DNA of 64,000 nucleotides from a virus: positions 28,200 through 92,199 of IMG/VR virus record IMGVR_UViG_3300046459_000548; one strand, given 5' to 3'. The notes beneath the pieces are model-generated. The model did no database searches, was not told where the DNA came from, and saw only the letters and a list, made by a program, of their open reading frames with translations. Each line of letters opens with the position of its first letter. The first letter of the stretch is position 1. Below, one piece after another: positions 25,232 through 59,419 of the stretch. A program made the translations under genes and the position numbers.

Positions 25232-25834
25232 ATGACGACGAAGCGCTGCGAGCACTGCGGGGGACCACTTCCGGTCCTGGCTCGCGGTGACGCGCGCTTC
25301 TGTTCGGGTCGTTGCCGCACCGCGGCCTGTCGCCGGCGACAGCGGGCGACAGATCCGGTTCCTTCGGCGATGACTCGGCGCCGACAGTGGGTGCGACACA
25401 CGGACCGGAAGGTGCCACTGGCTGTTGGCCGGCGGCACGTCGGGCCTGCATCATCGACTGATTCGTCGACGTGGGCCACGTACCGCACCGCAGACCGGTC
25501 ACCGGCAGGGCAAGGCCTGGGGTTCGTCCTCACCGCCGAGGACCGCATCGTGTGCATCGACTTGGACCACGCCATGCGCGACGGTGAACTGCTGCCGTGG
25601 GCGCGGAACATCGTGGACCGTCTGCCAGCCTCGTACATCGAGGTGTCGCCCTCCGGGACCGGGCTGCATATCTGGGGGACTGGCGAGGTTGGCCGGGGCC
25701 GGAAGGTTCGCCGCGGCGAGGTCGCGATCGAGGTGTATGACCGGGCCCGGTACATCACGGTGACCCGTCAGCCGTTTGAAGATGCTCCGTCGAAGCTCGC
25801 CGACCTGTCGAAGGTAATTGCCGACTTGCTGTGA
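25232..25834 (+). CDS. Prim-pol (archaeo-eukaryotic primase)-like protein
   Basis: A 200-residue protein. An N-terminal zinc knuckle (CEHCGGPLPVLARGDARFCSGRC) is followed by a bifunctional primase/polymerase-like domain: PLAVGRRHVGPASSTDSSTWATY, the acidic motif IVCIDLDH, the SPSGTGLHIWG strand with its S-x-H character, and IEVYDRARYITVTRQPF. These match the three catalytic AEP motifs in order. The helicase part seen in larger plasmid or phage primases is missing. It stands immediately before the terminase genes, a position in which many actinophages carry this protein. Role in replication or packaging is uncertain. Confidence 0.75.
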   Translation: MTTKRCEHCGGPLPVLARGDARFCSGRCRTAACRRRQRATDPVPSAMTRRRQWVRHTDRKVPLAVGRRHVGPASSTDSSTWATYRTADRSPAGQGLGFVLTAEDRIVCIDLDHAMRDGELLPWARNIVDRLPASYIEVSPSGTGLHIWGTGEVGRGRKVRRGEVAIEVYDRARYITVTRQPFEDAPSKLADLSKVIADLL

Positions 25835-25847
25835 GGGGGTGGCCCTG

Positions 25848-26306
25848 ATGGCTGGTCGCGGCATGGCACCGAAGGCGACGCGCTCGCGTTCGACGGACGC
25901 CAAGGCCCGGGATGCGGAGATGCGGCGCATCGAGGACGACGGCGAGTTGCGCGGACCTCCCCTGCCTGAGGGAGTCCTCCCGGATGGTGAGGACTGGCAC
26001 CCTCGAACTCGGCAGTGGTGGGACACCTGGCGAAGGTCTCCGCAAGCTCAGACGTTTATCGACACCGACTGGGACTTCCTTCTCGACACGGCACTTCTCC
26101 ACGCGATCATGTGGAGCCGCGGTAGATGGGAATTCGCCTCCGAGGTCCGTCTGCGGGCCGCGAAGTACGGGGCGACGCCGGAGGACCCGATGCGCCTGAA
26201 GTTGAAGATCGAGACTCCGGCGGACAGGCAGCCTCCTGCCGAGACGCCGCGGACGACGTCGGATCGTCGTAAGAACCTGCGGATCGTTGACGACGCCGCC
26301 GGGTAG
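25848..26306 (+). CDS. terS: Terminase small subunit
   Basis: A 152-residue protein directly upstream of the large terminase. It begins with basic MAGRGMAPKATRSRSTDAKARDAEM and contains DWHPRTRQWWDTWRRSPQAQTFIDTDWDFL and LLHAIMWSRGRWEFASEVRLRAAKYGATPEDPMRL, the pattern of actinophage small terminases that recognise the packaging site. GAGGGGG precedes the ATG. Assignment rests on these motifs and on position. Confidence 0.8.
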   Translation: MAGRGMAPKATRSRSTDAKARDAEMRRIEDDGELRGPPLPEGVLPDGEDWHPRTRQWWDTWRRSPQAQTFIDTDWDFLLDTALLHAIMWSRGRWEFASEVRLRAAKYGATPEDPMRLKLKIETPADRQPPAETPRTTSDRRKNLRIVDDAAG

Positions 26307-26314
26307 GGGGTGCC

Positions 26315-28978
26315 GTGCCTTGGAATGGCGGTACGCCCGAGCAGCCCTTTCCATCGCTGGGCCCGCAGATCGTCGAGCACATCGAGGAGTTCCTCTGCCA
26401 CGGCCCTGGCGACGTTGTCGGCGAGCCGATCGAACTGGACGATGAGTTCTACGCGTTCATCGTCAAGGCCTACCGTCTCGACCCGGAGACGGGCCGCCGT
26501 ATGTACCGGCGGGCGTTCCTGTCACGCGCGAAAGGGCGGGCCAAGTCGGAGATCGCCGGGATGCTCGTGTGCGCGGAGGCCCTGTTCCCGGTCCGCTTCG
26601 ACGGATGGGATGCGAACGGGGAGCCGGTCGGACGGCCGGTGAAGTCGCCGTTCATCCGCTGCCTGGCCACGGAAGAAGGCCAGTCGGGAAACACCTACGA
26701 CAACGTCTCGACGATGCTCGAGTATCTGGTCGAGAACCACGGTGACGACTTCCCGGGGATCGACATCGGCAAGTCGGCGCAGTCGTCGAGCCGGATCATC
26801 CTGCATCACCAGCGCGGCGAAATCACCCCGTCGACGGCGTCGTCTGCGGCGAAGGACGGCGGCAAGGAGACCTTCGCGGTGTTTGATGAGCCCATGGCTC
26901 TCGACACCCCCATACCAACCCCCGACGGCTGGAAGCAGATTGGCGACCTGAAAACCGGCGACTACGTCTACGGCGTGGACGGCCGCCCGATCCTCGTCTG
27001 GGGCGTAGCGCCGATCAAGCGCGATCGCCCCTGCTTCCGCGTGACCTTCGATGACGGCGCATCGGTGGTTACCGACGCCACTCACCGCTGGCACGTCTTC
27101 GACCGCAAGTCCACTAAAAAGTGGGCCGAGTGGACGACGCAGCAGATGGCGGACGCCAACTGGTACGGCGGCAAGCGGTTCGCCGTGGCGCAGGCTGCAG
27201 CGCTGGAAGCCGACGAAACGACGCTCCCGCTGGACCCGTATGTCCTGGGATTGTGGCTCGGCGACGGAGACGAGCGCGCTGCAACGCTCGCCGTGGGTCG
27301 CGACGACCTCGACGGCATGCTCGCAGAGCTTCACCGCGTCGGGTTCACGACCTCCGTCTACGACTACTCGGAAGATCGGGGCGCCGTCGCGGTCCGGTTC
27401 AACCACGGCCAGCGGTACGGCAAGAGCGGCACCTCGCAAGGCGCGCTGCGGGCGCTGGGAGTGCTGGAGAACAAGCATGCTCCGGACTCCTACCTATGGG
27501 CGTCCCGCGAGCAGCGCTTGGCGCTCCTGCAGGGCCTGATGGACAGCGACGGCTACGTCAACGAGCGCGGGAACTGCATCTTCACGAGCTCCTCGCGCGC
27601 CCTGGCGGACGCTGTTGTCCAGCTGGTGCGCTCGCTGGGCTGGCGCACGAGCGCAGGCCACTGGAGTTCGGACGAGCGCTGGAAGTCGCGGGTCACGGGA
27701 ACGTGGCGGGTCTCTTTCACGCCGTCAGGGATGGTTCCGTTCCGCATGAAGCGCAAGGCGGAGCGCTGCCGCCCGGTGGTCGCCGAGAAGACTCGGGCGA
27801 TCACGTCCATTGAGCCGGTGGAGTCGGTACCTGTCCGCTGCATCGCGGTGGACTCCGAAGATCACCTGTTCCTGGCTGGCGAGTCGATGCTTCCGACGCA
27901 CAACACGCACCTGTACGTGCTTCCGGAGCTGCGGCGCATGCACGGCACGGTCCGCCGCAACCTGCGGAAGCGCAAGGAAGCTGAACCGTGGTGCCTTGAG
28001 ACGTCGACGATGTACGAGCCGGGCCAGGACTCGGTGGCCGAAGCGACGCACACGTACTACAAGGCGATCAAGGAGGGGCGAGTTCGGGACGCGGACGCTG
28101 CCGGTCTCCTCTTCGATCATCGTCAGGCGAAGGACGGTACGGACCTCGCGGATCGTGACGCGCTCCTTGCTGGGCTCCGCGAGGCTTACGGGCCGGCCGC
28201 GGCCTGGATGGATCTGGACGGCATCGTTGCGGAGATTTGGGATCCGCAGTCGGCGCCTTCGGATTCGCGCCGGTACTGGTTGAACCAGCCGGTTGCGGCG
28301 GAGGATGCGCTGCTGGATCCGGCGGAGTGGGCGAAGTGTGCGTCGGAGCTTCGGCTCGAGGACGGCGACGACATCGTTCTCGGCTTCGATGGCGGCAAGT
28401 CGGATGACGCGACCGCGCTGGTCGCAATGCGGGTGTCGGACCGTCTCGTGCAGCCGCTGGGAATCTGGGAGCGCCCGGATGGTCCGCTGGCGAAGGGCTG
28501 GGAGGTCGACCGTAAGCAGGTCTCTGATCTGGTGGCGCATGCCTTCGGCCGCTACGGGGTGCGGGCGTTTTTCGCCGACGTGAAGCTGTGGGAGTCGTAC
28601 ATCGACGAGTGGACGGACACCTACCGGGATGAACTGTTGGCGAAGGCGTCTGCGAAGTCGCTGATCGGCTACGACATGCGGGGGCATCAGCAGGAGTTGA
28701 CGAAGGCGACTGAGGCGCTGGTGCAGGCGATCGCAGACGGCAAGCTCCCGCACACGAACCATCCGATCTTGAACCGGCATGTCGGCAACGCGCGGCGCCG
28801 GCCGAACCGTTTCGGCGTCAGCTTCGGCAAGGAGTCGCGTGAGTCGCCAAAGAAAGTGGACGGGTTCGCGGCGATGCAGCTGGCGGATATGGCGAGGCGG
28901 GCGCTGCTCGCGTCGTCTGAGTGGACGAAGCGGCAGAAGAAGCGGCAGCGGACGGGGCGGGTTCATGGCTTTGGGTGA
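26315..28978 (+). CDS. terL: Terminase large subunit interrupted by an in-frame intein
   Basis: An 887-residue precursor (GTG start after TAGGGGG). Exteins total 549 residues. The N-extein carries the ATPase with RRAFLSRAKGRAKSEIAGM and the Walker B strand ETFAVFDE (D191, E192). The C-extein resumes THLYVLPELRRMHGT and has the RNase H-like nuclease (DIVLGFDGGKSDDATALVA; later FFADVKLWESYIDEW). The intein spans residues 193-530 and sits exactly at the DE/TH junction of the ATPase site, so an unspliced protein should be inactive. TerL cuts concatemers and pumps DNA into proheads. It is followed by portal, as expected. Confidence 0.9.
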   Translation: MPWNGGTPEQPFPSLGPQIVEHIEEFLCHGPGDVVGEPIELDDEFYAFIVKAYRLDPETGRRMYRRAFLSRAKGRAKSEIAGMLVCAEALFPVRFDGWDANGEPVGRPVKSPFIRCLATEEGQSGNTYDNVSTMLEYLVENHGDDFPGIDIGKSAQSSSRIILHHQRGEITPSTASSAAKDGGKETFAVFDEPMALDTPIPTPDGWKQIGDLKTGDYVYGVDGRPILVWGVAPIKRDRPCFRVTFDDGASVVTDATHRWHVFDRKSTKKWAEWTTQQMADANWYGGKRFAVAQAAALEADETTLPLDPYVLGLWLGDGDERAATLAVGRDDLDGMLAELHRVGFTTSVYDYSEDRGAVAVRFNHGQRYGKSGTSQGALRALGVLENKHAPDSYLWASREQRLALLQGLMDSDGYVNERGNCIFTSSSRALADAVVQLVRSLGWRTSAGHWSSDERWKSRVTGTWRVSFTPSGMVPFRMKRKAERCRPVVAEKTRAITSIEPVESVPVRCIAVDSEDHLFLAGESMLPTHNTHLYVLPELRRMHGTVRRNLRKRKEAEPWCLETSTMYEPGQDSVAEATHTYYKAIKEGRVRDADAAGLLFDHRQAKDGTDLADRDALLAGLREAYGPAAAWMDLDGIVAEIWDPQSAPSDSRRYWLNQPVAAEDALLDPAEWAKCASELRLEDGDDIVLGFDGGKSDDATALVAMRVSDRLVQPLGIWERPDGPLAKGWEVDRKQVSDLVAHAFGRYGVRAFFADVKLWESYIDEWTDTYRDELLAKASAKSLIGYDMRGHQQELTKATEALVQAIADGKLPHTNHPILNRHVGNARRRPNRFGVSFGKESRESPKKVDGFAAMQLADMARRALLASSEWTKRQKKRQRTGRVHGFG
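26891..27904 (+). other. Class 3-like intein with LAGLIDADG homing endonuclease (inside terL)
   Basis: A 338-residue insertion between extein residues E192 and T531 of the precursor. Block A (ALDTPIPTPDGWKQIGDL) is preceded by Pro at position 1 instead of Cys/Ser. The WCT triad that defines class 3 inteins is present: Trp67 (TDATHRW, block B), Cys317 (PVRCIAVD, block F) and Thr336 before the terminal His337-Asn338 (PTHN). The +1 residue is Thr. Two LAGLIDADG-like helices are visible (YVLGLWLGDGD and ALLQGLMDSDGYV), so homing activity may remain. Splicing is predicted from these motifs, not tested. Confidence 0.88.
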
Positions 28979-28993: not shown

Positions 28994-30409
28994 GTGGTGA
29001 TGGGCACGAATGAGACGGTGTCGACGGCGCAGCGCCTGCTAAAGCTGCGGGCCGATGAGCAGGTCCGGCTGAAGAAGATCGCCGACTATATGGCTGGCCG
29101 GCATGCGAGCGTGTATGTGCCGCGGGGTGCGCGGGCGGAGTACCGGTGGCTGCTGGAGCGGGCCAAGGTCAAGATCCTGCCGCTGATCGTGACGGTCGTC
29201 GCGCAGAACATGTACGTCGACGGGTACCGGCCGGCAGGCAAGGACGAGAACGCAGCGCCGTGGGCGACGTGGCAGGCGAACCGTCTGGATGCCCGTCAGC
29301 ATGGCGTCCACCGGGCGGCGCTGACGTATGGGGCCGCGTATACGGTGGTGATGCCGGGCACTCCGACGCCGGTGGTCACCCCGTTTTCGCCGCGTCGGTT
29401 GACGGCCTTGTATGCGGATCCGGTGAATGACGAGTGGCCGCTGTATGCGGTCGAGGACCGGGTGGAGAACACGCCGGACGGTCAGCAGCGTGTGGTCCGC
29501 GTCTATGACGATCAGGCCAGGTATTCGCTGGTGTCGAAGGTCGACGGCTCGGACTTGCGGGCGGCGAAGGATACGCCGGTTCAGGAGCATGGTCTGGGCG
29601 TGTGTCCGGTGGTCCGGTTCGTCAACACCGACGATCTGGACGGCGACGGGGTGATGGGCGAGGTCGAGCCACTGATCGACGCCCAGGATCAGCTGAACAT
29701 GACCACCTTCAATCTGATGATGGCGCAGCAGTATGCGGCGTTCCGGCAGCGCTGGGTGACGGGCATGGTGCCTCCGGAGGACGAGTCAGGGAATCCGGTG
29801 GAGCCGTTCCGGTCCCGGGTGGATGGCCTGTTCGTCGCCGAGGACGCCGACACGAAGTTCGGCGAGTTCGGCGCTACGGACCTGAAGGGCTACCTGGACT
29901 CGACGGAGGCGACGATCCGGCACATTGCGACGCTGTCGCAGGTGCCTCCGTATCACCTGCTCGGGCACATGACGAACCTGTCGGCGGAAGCGCTGGCTGC
30001 GGCCCGGGACGGCCTGGACCGCAAGTGCGGTGAGCGCGAGTCGTCGTTCGGTGAGGCGTGGGAGCAGACGCTGCGTCTGGCGGGTCTCGCCGCTGGCGAT
30101 CGGGAGGCGTGGGCGGACACTTCAGCGCAGGTCGTGTGGCGGGATACGTCGGCGCGGTCGCTGGCTCAGACAGTCGATGCGCTCGGCAAGCTGGTGACGA
30201 TGCTGGGTGTGCCGCCGCAGGAGCTTTGGGAGCGGGTACCGGGTGTGACGCAGACGGATGTGGAGCGCTGGAAGACGGCTGCCCACGAGACGGATGCGAT
30301 GGCCCGCATGAACGACATCATCGCCAAGCAGATGGCTCCGCAGGTGCAGCAGCTCAATGGGGCGACTCCGGCTTCTCCGCCGCCTGCTGATCCGAAGGTA
30401 GCGGCGTGA
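28994..30409 (+). CDS. Portal protein (SPP1 gp6-like)
   Basis: A 471-residue portal protein that would form the dodecameric DNA gate of the capsid. It begins TAQRLLKLRADEQVRLKKIADYMAG, contains VTVVAQNMYVDGYRP, then the portal core VVRFVNTDDLDGDGVMGEVEPLIDAQDQLNMTTFNLMMAQQ and LSQVPPYHLLGHMTNLSAEALAAA. Length and order match Gp6-type portals. GTG at 28994 gives the longest frame; ATG at 29000 is an alternative. It lies between terL and the MuF-like gene. Confidence 0.88.
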   Translation: MVMGTNETVSTAQRLLKLRADEQVRLKKIADYMAGRHASVYVPRGARAEYRWLLERAKVKILPLIVTVVAQNMYVDGYRPAGKDENAAPWATWQANRLDARQHGVHRAALTYGAAYTVVMPGTPTPVVTPFSPRRLTALYADPVNDEWPLYAVEDRVENTPDGQQRVVRVYDDQARYSLVSKVDGSDLRAAKDTPVQEHGLGVCPVVRFVNTDDLDGDGVMGEVEPLIDAQDQLNMTTFNLMMAQQYAAFRQRWVTGMVPPEDESGNPVEPFRSRVDGLFVAEDADTKFGEFGATDLKGYLDSTEATIRHIATLSQVPPYHLLGHMTNLSAEALAAARDGLDRKCGERESSFGEAWEQTLRLAGLAAGDREAWADTSAQVVWRDTSARSLAQTVDALGKLVTMLGVPPQELWERVPGVTQTDVERWKTAAHETDAMARMNDIIAKQMAPQVQQLNGATPASPPPADPKVAA

Positions 30410-58083: not shown

Positions 58084-58191
58084 AGCTGCCTCCTAATCCC
58101 GGGCTCATCCCGGATTCCCGCCCGCAATGGTTGGAGCAGATCCATCGGCCTCGGTTGTCCTGGTAGGCCCCGGCCCCGCAGTTCGGACAGT

Positions 58192-58497
58192 TCATCGTCG
58201 CGCCTCCCGCACGAGCCGGTACAGGCCGCGGCTGGTCCCGCACTCGCTCGCCTCGTCGACGCACTGCTCACAGAAGGGTGCGTGGGTGTACAGGGCTCGG
58301 CGGGCGCGATCGGCAACGCAGTCCGGGCAGGCGCGGGGAACCCCCTTTCGGGCCCTGCCGTTCGCTGCGAGCCGTGGGGCCCGCCGCTCCTCCCAGCTCT
58401 CCACGGGAGGCCATGCGGCTGTCCGGCCGTGCGAGTGCCGGACGGTGTGGGCGCTCGTAGGCTGGCCTTCTCGGGGCTCGTCGCGGAGGTCTGCCAT
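58192..58497 (-). CDS. Hypothetical protein with CxxC pairs, divergent to ku
   Basis: A 101-residue frame whose ATG at 58497 overlaps the ku ATG on the other strand. RACPDCVADRARRALYTHAPFCEQCVDEASECG gives a plausible four-cysteine zinc site. The overlapping divergent starts are unusual, so the true start may lie elsewhere. Moderately supported. Confidence 0.45.
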   Translation of the reverse strand: MADLRDEPREGQPTSAHTVRHSHGRTAAWPPVESWEERRAPRLAANGRARKGVPRACPDCVADRARRALYTHAPFCEQCVDEASECGTSRGLYRLVREARR

Positions 58498-59419
58498 GCC
58501 CCGAACCATCTGGTCAGGCGCCATCAGCTTTGGCCTGGTCACGGTGCCGATCCATGTCGTGAGTGCCACCGAGGATCACAGCATTCGCTTCCATCAGGTC
58601 CACCTCGACGACATGGCCCGCGTCCGCGTCCGGAAGTACTGCGAGCTCGAGGACCGCGAGGTCTCTCAGGGAGAGATCGGGAAGGGCTACGAGCTGTCCA
58701 AGGACACGATCATCCCGGTGCTCGACGAGGAACTGCAGCAGATGCCGCTGCCGACGGCGAAAGCGATCGAGCTAGTGGCGTTCATGCCGGCGGAGAGCAT
58801 CGACCCGATCCGGGTGGGCGACGGCTACTACCTGCAGCCGGACGGGCAGGTCGCGGCGAAACCGTACAAGCTGCTGGCGCAGGCGCTCGAGCGGTCATCG
58901 AAGGTGGCTGTCGCCAAGTTTGCCTGGTCAGGCCGTGAGCGCCTGGGTCTGCTCCGTGTCCGTGATGACGTGATCGTCCTGCATGCGATGCGCTGGGACG
59001 ACGAGATCCGCGACCCGTCCGAGCTGGCACCCGATGCGGTGGAGCTCACCGACGAGGAGCTCGCGGAGGCGGAGCGTCTCATCGACGGCTTTTCCCGCGA
59101 TGACCTGGAGGGCGAGGAGTTCATCGACCGGTACACGGAGGCGGTGGAACAGCTCATCGACGCGAAGCGGGAGCACAAGGAGCCGCCGCGGGCGGCCGAG
59201 GAGCCGGAGGCGCCGGGCCAGGTCGTCGACCTGATGGCCGCACTGCAGGAGTCTGTGGCGAAGGCGCGGGCGGGCCGCGGCGAAGACGCCACCGTGCACG
59301 AGATGCCGAAGAAGAAGACGGCGAAGAAGGCGGCAAAGAAGCGATCAGCCAAGACGATTCCGAGCAAGAATGCTGCACGCAAGAAGGCGGCCACGAAGAA
59401 GCCGCCGCGATCTGCTTGA
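58496..59419 (+). CDS. ku: Ku protein (NHEJ DNA-end binding)
   Basis: A 307-residue bacterial Ku homologue; GGAGG lies at 58484-58488 before the ATG. The Ku core opens RTIWSGAISFGLVTVPIHVVSATEDHSIRFHQVHLDD, with KYCELEDREVSQGEIGKGYEL, IVLHAMRWDDEIRDPSEL and DRYTEAVEQLIDAKREHK. A lysine/alanine-rich tail (~275-307) adds DNA affinity. Ku dimers hold double-strand ends for LigD; no LigD is in this window, so it would use the host's or serve to circularise injected linear DNA, as proposed for Ku of some mycobacteriophages. Confidence 0.92.
   Translation: MPRTIWSGAISFGLVTVPIHVVSATEDHSIRFHQVHLDDMARVRVRKYCELEDREVSQGEIGKGYELSKDTIIPVLDEELQQMPLPTAKAIELVAFMPAESIDPIRVGDGYYLQPDGQVAAKPYKLLAQALERSSKVAVAKFAWSGRERLGLLRVRDDVIVLHAMRWDDEIRDPSELAPDAVELTDEELAEAERLIDGFSRDDLEGEEFIDRYTEAVEQLIDAKREHKEPPRAAEEPEAPGQVVDLMAALQESVAKARAGRGEDATVHEMPKKKTAKKAAKKRSAKTIPSKNAARKKAATKKPPRSA

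Follow-up and report, generated by a model that had tools for sequence, protein, structure and literature searches.

A class 3 intein predicted to splice out of the Walker B site of a phage large terminase subunit

Results

A phage terminase gene with an in-frame insert

We analyzed a window of 64,000 nucleotides (positions 28,200 to 92,199 of IMG/VR virus record IMGVR_UViG_3300046459_000548). One open reading frame in this window has 887 codons with no internal stops, and its two ends match PHROG families for the large terminase subunit (TerL; best E = 1.1e-70). The only Pfam matches within it are LAGLIDADG_3, Hom_end, and a sub-threshold match to the TerL nuclease. A gene for a small-terminase-like protein lies upstream, and genes for the portal, the head maturation protease, the scaffold, and the major head protein lie downstream, as is standard for a packaging module (Table 1). 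The relatives of TerL and the high GC content point to an actinobacterial host for this phage. Megablast did not find a close phage relative. (Elsewhere in the window, at 58127-59419, is a gene for a Ku-like DNA end-binding protein, with a match to PHROG 4873 at E = 2.4e-63.)

Table 1. Features of the terminase locus, in coordinates of the window. Residue numbers of motifs are those of the intein.
Feature	Coordinates	Strand	Remarks
Small-terminase-like gene	25818..26306		Upstream of the TerL gene
TerL precursor gene	26315..28978	+	887 aa; 549 aa expected after splicing; GTG start
N-extein	26315..26890	+	192 aa; ATPase part, ends ...FAVFDE (Walker B)
Class 3 intein with LAGLIDADG homing endonuclease	26891..27904	+	338 aa
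Block B His65-Arg66-Trp67 (B:10 to B:12)	27083..27091	+	H65 and W67 columns invariant
First LAGLIDADG segment, PYVLGLWLGDG	27236..27268	+	Residues 116-126; model helix 116-125
Second LAGLIDADG segment, LLQGLMDSDG	27524..27553	+	Residues 212-221; within model helix 206-220; Pfam LAGLIDADG_3
Cys317 (block F:4)	27839..27841	+	Predicted first nucleophile; invariant in alignments
Thr336-His337-Asn338 (block G:5-7)	27896..27904	+	C-terminal end of the intein
C-extein	27905..28978	+	From Thr+1 (THLYVL...); remaining ATPase part and nuclease domain
Portal gene	28994..30409		Downstream of the TerL gene

Residues 193-530 of the TerL precursor form an insert, in frame, between FDE and THL. It starts with PMALDTPIPTPDGW and ends with LPTHN, which is followed by THLYVL. 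An earlier note, made from the sequence alone, had described 338 residues that begin with Pro, end with His-Asn, and are followed by Thr, and its coordinates were exact to the base. We rejected base composition as a sign of foreign origin: the GC content is 67.1% for the insert and 65.9% for the flanks. We searched the record (92,199 bases) for a second intein of the same type and found none.

Close relatives of this terminase lack the insert

Uninterrupted TerLs that are 85-94% identical to the joined flanks were found at 30 loci in IMG/VR, several of which are near-identical to each other. Nearly all of these TerLs read directly from FDE into THL; three of the 30 have a divergent stretch just upstream, with DE|THL still continuous. 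The DNA at the empty site reads GA(G/A)|ACNCA in all 21 of the intein-free alleles that were lined up. This lineage thus has an insert that is missing from its nearest known relatives. Among phage records, the flanks without the insert match uninterrupted TerLs at about 44%, while the insert alone matches 764 records (best E = 6e-68).

We considered whether the insert might be a normal domain of the terminase, given that it is in frame and free of stop codons. The earlier note had proposed to look for uninterrupted terminases with these 338 residues as an ordinary domain, and what we found instead was close relatives without them. Furthermore, homologous inserts occur at other positions of TerL as well as in other proteins, among them RecB/Cas4-like and portal proteins, and the predicted fold is that of an intein (see below). 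We give this explanation almost no credence.

We also noticed that the TerL genes of three loci (L013, L015, and L018) are nearly identical to ours downstream of Walker B and diverge just upstream (for instance, GNVRGVLTVDE|THL). Their sequences suggest mosaic exchange at the Walker B point.

The insert is a class 3 intein

Class 3 inteins have no nucleophile at position 1, and have Trp at B:12, Cys at F:4, and Thr at G:5 (PMC3196547, PMC5222942). The insert has Pro1, rather than Cys, Ser, or Thr, and it has Trp67, Cys317, and Thr336 at the defining positions, along with His65 and His337. It ends with Asn338, followed by Thr+1, where Cys, Ser, or Thr is allowed. Two alignments (with 8 and 20 relatives) show no variation at W67, C317, T336, or N338. 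The W, C, and THN are kept in 172 of the 177 relatives that we retrieved, which were found by similarity and hence are not an unbiased sample.

The sequence and the predicted fold both indicate a HINT splicing domain with relatives among known class 3 inteins. Each of the splicing halves matches the class 3 DnaB inteins 6bs8, 6rix, and 6riy (E down to 1.3e-25), and the middle part matches PI-SceI by sequence. The AlphaFold model of the intein (mean pLDDT of 90) has PI-SceI as its closest fold (E = 5e-23) and aligns to 6bs8, 6rix, and 6riy with TMt of 0.84-0.89. (The model of the whole 887-residue precursor, with pLDDT of 53 and pTM of 0.31, is too poor for use.)

We also considered splicing by class 1 or class 2, since class 2 inteins likewise have no nucleophile at position 1. 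But Pro1 excludes class 1, and the full WCT triplet is present. Also, class 3 inteins are the nearest sequences with solved structures, and a tree places the insert with class 3 inteins of the TerL1-e type. We consider another mechanism class to be very improbable. The normal-domain, class 1, and class 2 readings were all rejected.

Between the splicing halves, the insert contains two LAGLIDADG segments (LGLWLGDGD and LLQGLMDSDG). It matches Pfam LAGLIDADG_3 (E = 2e-6) and Hom_end, and the predicted fold is similar to PI-SceI. The suggestion that two LAGLIDADG helices are retained was borne out: both segments are present, with Pfam matches and with helices in the model. Neither segment has lost its acidic residues, so this is probably an intact endonuclease.

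The insertion site is TerL1-e

Kelley et al. 2016 (PMC5050341) named seven insertion sites in TerL; the Walker B site is TerL1-e, which is occupied by class 3 inteins. They also showed that Gaia gp2, which is of the TerL1-e type, splices in an MBP-intein-GFP reporter. When we aligned the joined exteins, eight intein-bearing TerLs shared the same junction, at column 308: this TerL and those of JonJames, Nocardia aurea (L057), L149, Gaia, L142, L143, and Streptomyces sp. SAJ15 (L058). So our insertion lies in Walker B and in the same column as that of Gaia gp2. The earlier note had thought that class 3 at this exact site might be unusual, but the same combination is already in PMC5050341 and we found seven other cases in the same column. 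Class and site were both known before, and this intein is a further example of the published TerL1-e group.

The presence of a class 3 intein at the Walker B site, which the earlier note had proposed, is supported by the signature residues, the relatives, the fold, and the comparison to empty sites. We are highly confident that this actinobacterial phage TerL has a mobile class 3 intein of the TerL1-e type at its Walker B site, and we expect the intein to splice out.

The N-terminal junction is Glu-Pro

The only slightly unusual feature of this intein is its N-terminal junction. With Pro1, the scissile bond is Glu-Pro. Proline is found at position 1 in 22 of the 163 relatives whose N-terminus could be aligned, so Pro1 is a recurrent minority type. 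In the class 3 intein literature that we cite, we found no experimental precedent for a Glu-Pro scissile bond. Positions 1 and -1 are linked among all of the class 3 loci that we retrieved: Lys(-1) is accompanied by Ala1 in 116 cases and by Pro1 in one, and Pro1 occurs almost only with another residue at -1 (21 of 22).

Discussion

Proposed splicing and homing

The class 3 mechanism and its requirement for the cysteine at F:4 have been described (PMC5222942), as has the Cys-His-Thr triad of the MchDnaB1 intein (PMC7664689). Following the published route, we propose that the gene is translated as one precursor of 887 amino acids, and that Cys317, with His65 and Thr336 as its activators, attacks the bond between Glu192 and Pro193 to form a first branched thioester. 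The N-extein would then be moved to Thr+1 (the second branch), cyclization of Asn338 would free the intein, and an acyl shift would link FDE to THL and restore the Walker B motif. The peptide across the junction of the ligated product would be ...FAVFDETHLYVL... Because the insert directly follows the Asp-Glu of Walker B, unspliced TerL should lack ATPase activity, and the insertion site implies that packaging would depend on splicing.

Alternatively, the intein might be impaired in splicing: it would fold, and it might cut DNA, but it would mainly cleave or would splice slowly, leading to a loss of TerL or to regulation of its timing. In favor of this, the Glu-Pro junction is unusual, and an inactive class 3 intein has been retained in another genome (PMC3196547). 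However, none of the catalytic positions is damaged; His(B:10) and Cys(F:4) are both present, whereas the decayed Arth_1007 intein has lost them. Furthermore, the C-extein has kept its frame and its resemblance (85-94%) to uninterrupted TerLs, and splicing of the Gaia gp2 intein, which occupies this site too, is fast (PMC5050341). Impaired splicing is very unlikely, and we continue to expect that the intein splices out.

Once excised, the intein would act as a homing endonuclease that cuts intein-free terL alleles around GA(G/A)|ACNCA, and the intein would be copied into the cleaved allele. Our proposal of homing fits the presence of the intein here and its absence from TerLs that are up to 94% identical.

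Relatives in an orphan gene and in portal genes

The nearest relative of this intein, with 73% identity across all 338 residues, is an orphan from Nonomuraea zeae (L056:3001-4014). Like our intein, it has Pro at position 1 and is flanked by E|TH, but it lies outside of any terminase, with an extein of just about 5 + 9 residues (MSAEE and THVLASNLE). Its frame is intact, and at L056:2986-4044 (from NZ_VCKX01000002.1) it has all of the splicing and LAGLIDADG residues. A decayed class 3 orphan, Arth_1007, was described previously (PMC3196547); in contrast, the N. zeae orphan retains all of its catalytic residues.

The next nearest relatives are in phage portal genes. The L136 intein interrupts a portal gene (Pfam Phage_portal) at GE|TR; L137 has the same flanks, and those of L140 are similar. 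(The Pro1 class 3 inteins at L136:3001-3993 and L137:2956-3963 are about 45% identical to ours.) In a quick maximum-likelihood tree of 76 class 3 inteins, whose branching among the Pro1 relatives is provisional, our intein and the N. zeae intein are paired with full support, and the pair is placed, with support of 85, beside the three Pro1 inteins of L136, L137, and L140. The set of Walker B, orphan, and portal-site inteins has an SH-aLRT of only 85 in this provisional tree. The Walker B inteins cluster, with 2 label changes versus a mean of 7.7 after shuffling.

We speculate, quite tentatively, that a small branch of class 3 inteins with Pro1 and Glu(-1) moved between the Walker B site of TerL, the portal (L136 and L137), and the orphan gene of Nonomuraea. 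If so, then one endonuclease lineage, splicing at a Glu-Pro junction, switches its target inside the phage packaging module and can persist outside of a functional host gene.

Significance and comparison to known inteins

This example extends the TerL1-e class 3 group to a new lineage of actinobacterial phages with close intein-free relatives. Those relatives would supply matched pairs in which to test splicing and homing, as well as how the intein affects packaging. The Glu-Pro junction and the nearly extein-free relative are of modest use for intein evolution and engineering. The overall picture of class 3 inteins is unchanged.

Among known systems, the intein of mycobacteriophage Gaia gp2 also lies in the Walker B column of TerL (NE|SH in Gaia), with the WCT signature, about 340 amino acids, and a LAGLIDADG-type core. 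It is about 40% identical to our intein (about 29% for the exteins) and differs in having Ala at position 1 and Ser at +1. The inteins of Gordonia phage JonJames (OR159664, gp30) and of the prophage-like TerL of N. aurea share the column, the DE|TH junction, the WCT residues, and the LAGLIDADG motifs. Both are 43% identical to ours, with Ala at position 1. (The feature table for JonJames gp30, L001:1956-4685, says only "terminase large subunit" for this gene with a same-site intein.) The DnaB inteins of Mycobacterium smegmatis (6bs8) and M. chimaera (6rix and 6riy) share the splicing domain and the WCT triad, but they are mini-inteins without an endonuclease and their host protein is DnaB. Finally, the inteins in RecB-like proteins of cluster C1 mycobacteriophages (such as StubbySaigey gp219) are full-length, with WCT and 43.6% identity to ours; they differ in their host protein, a RecB-like nuclease, and, in our own alignment, in having Ser at position 1.
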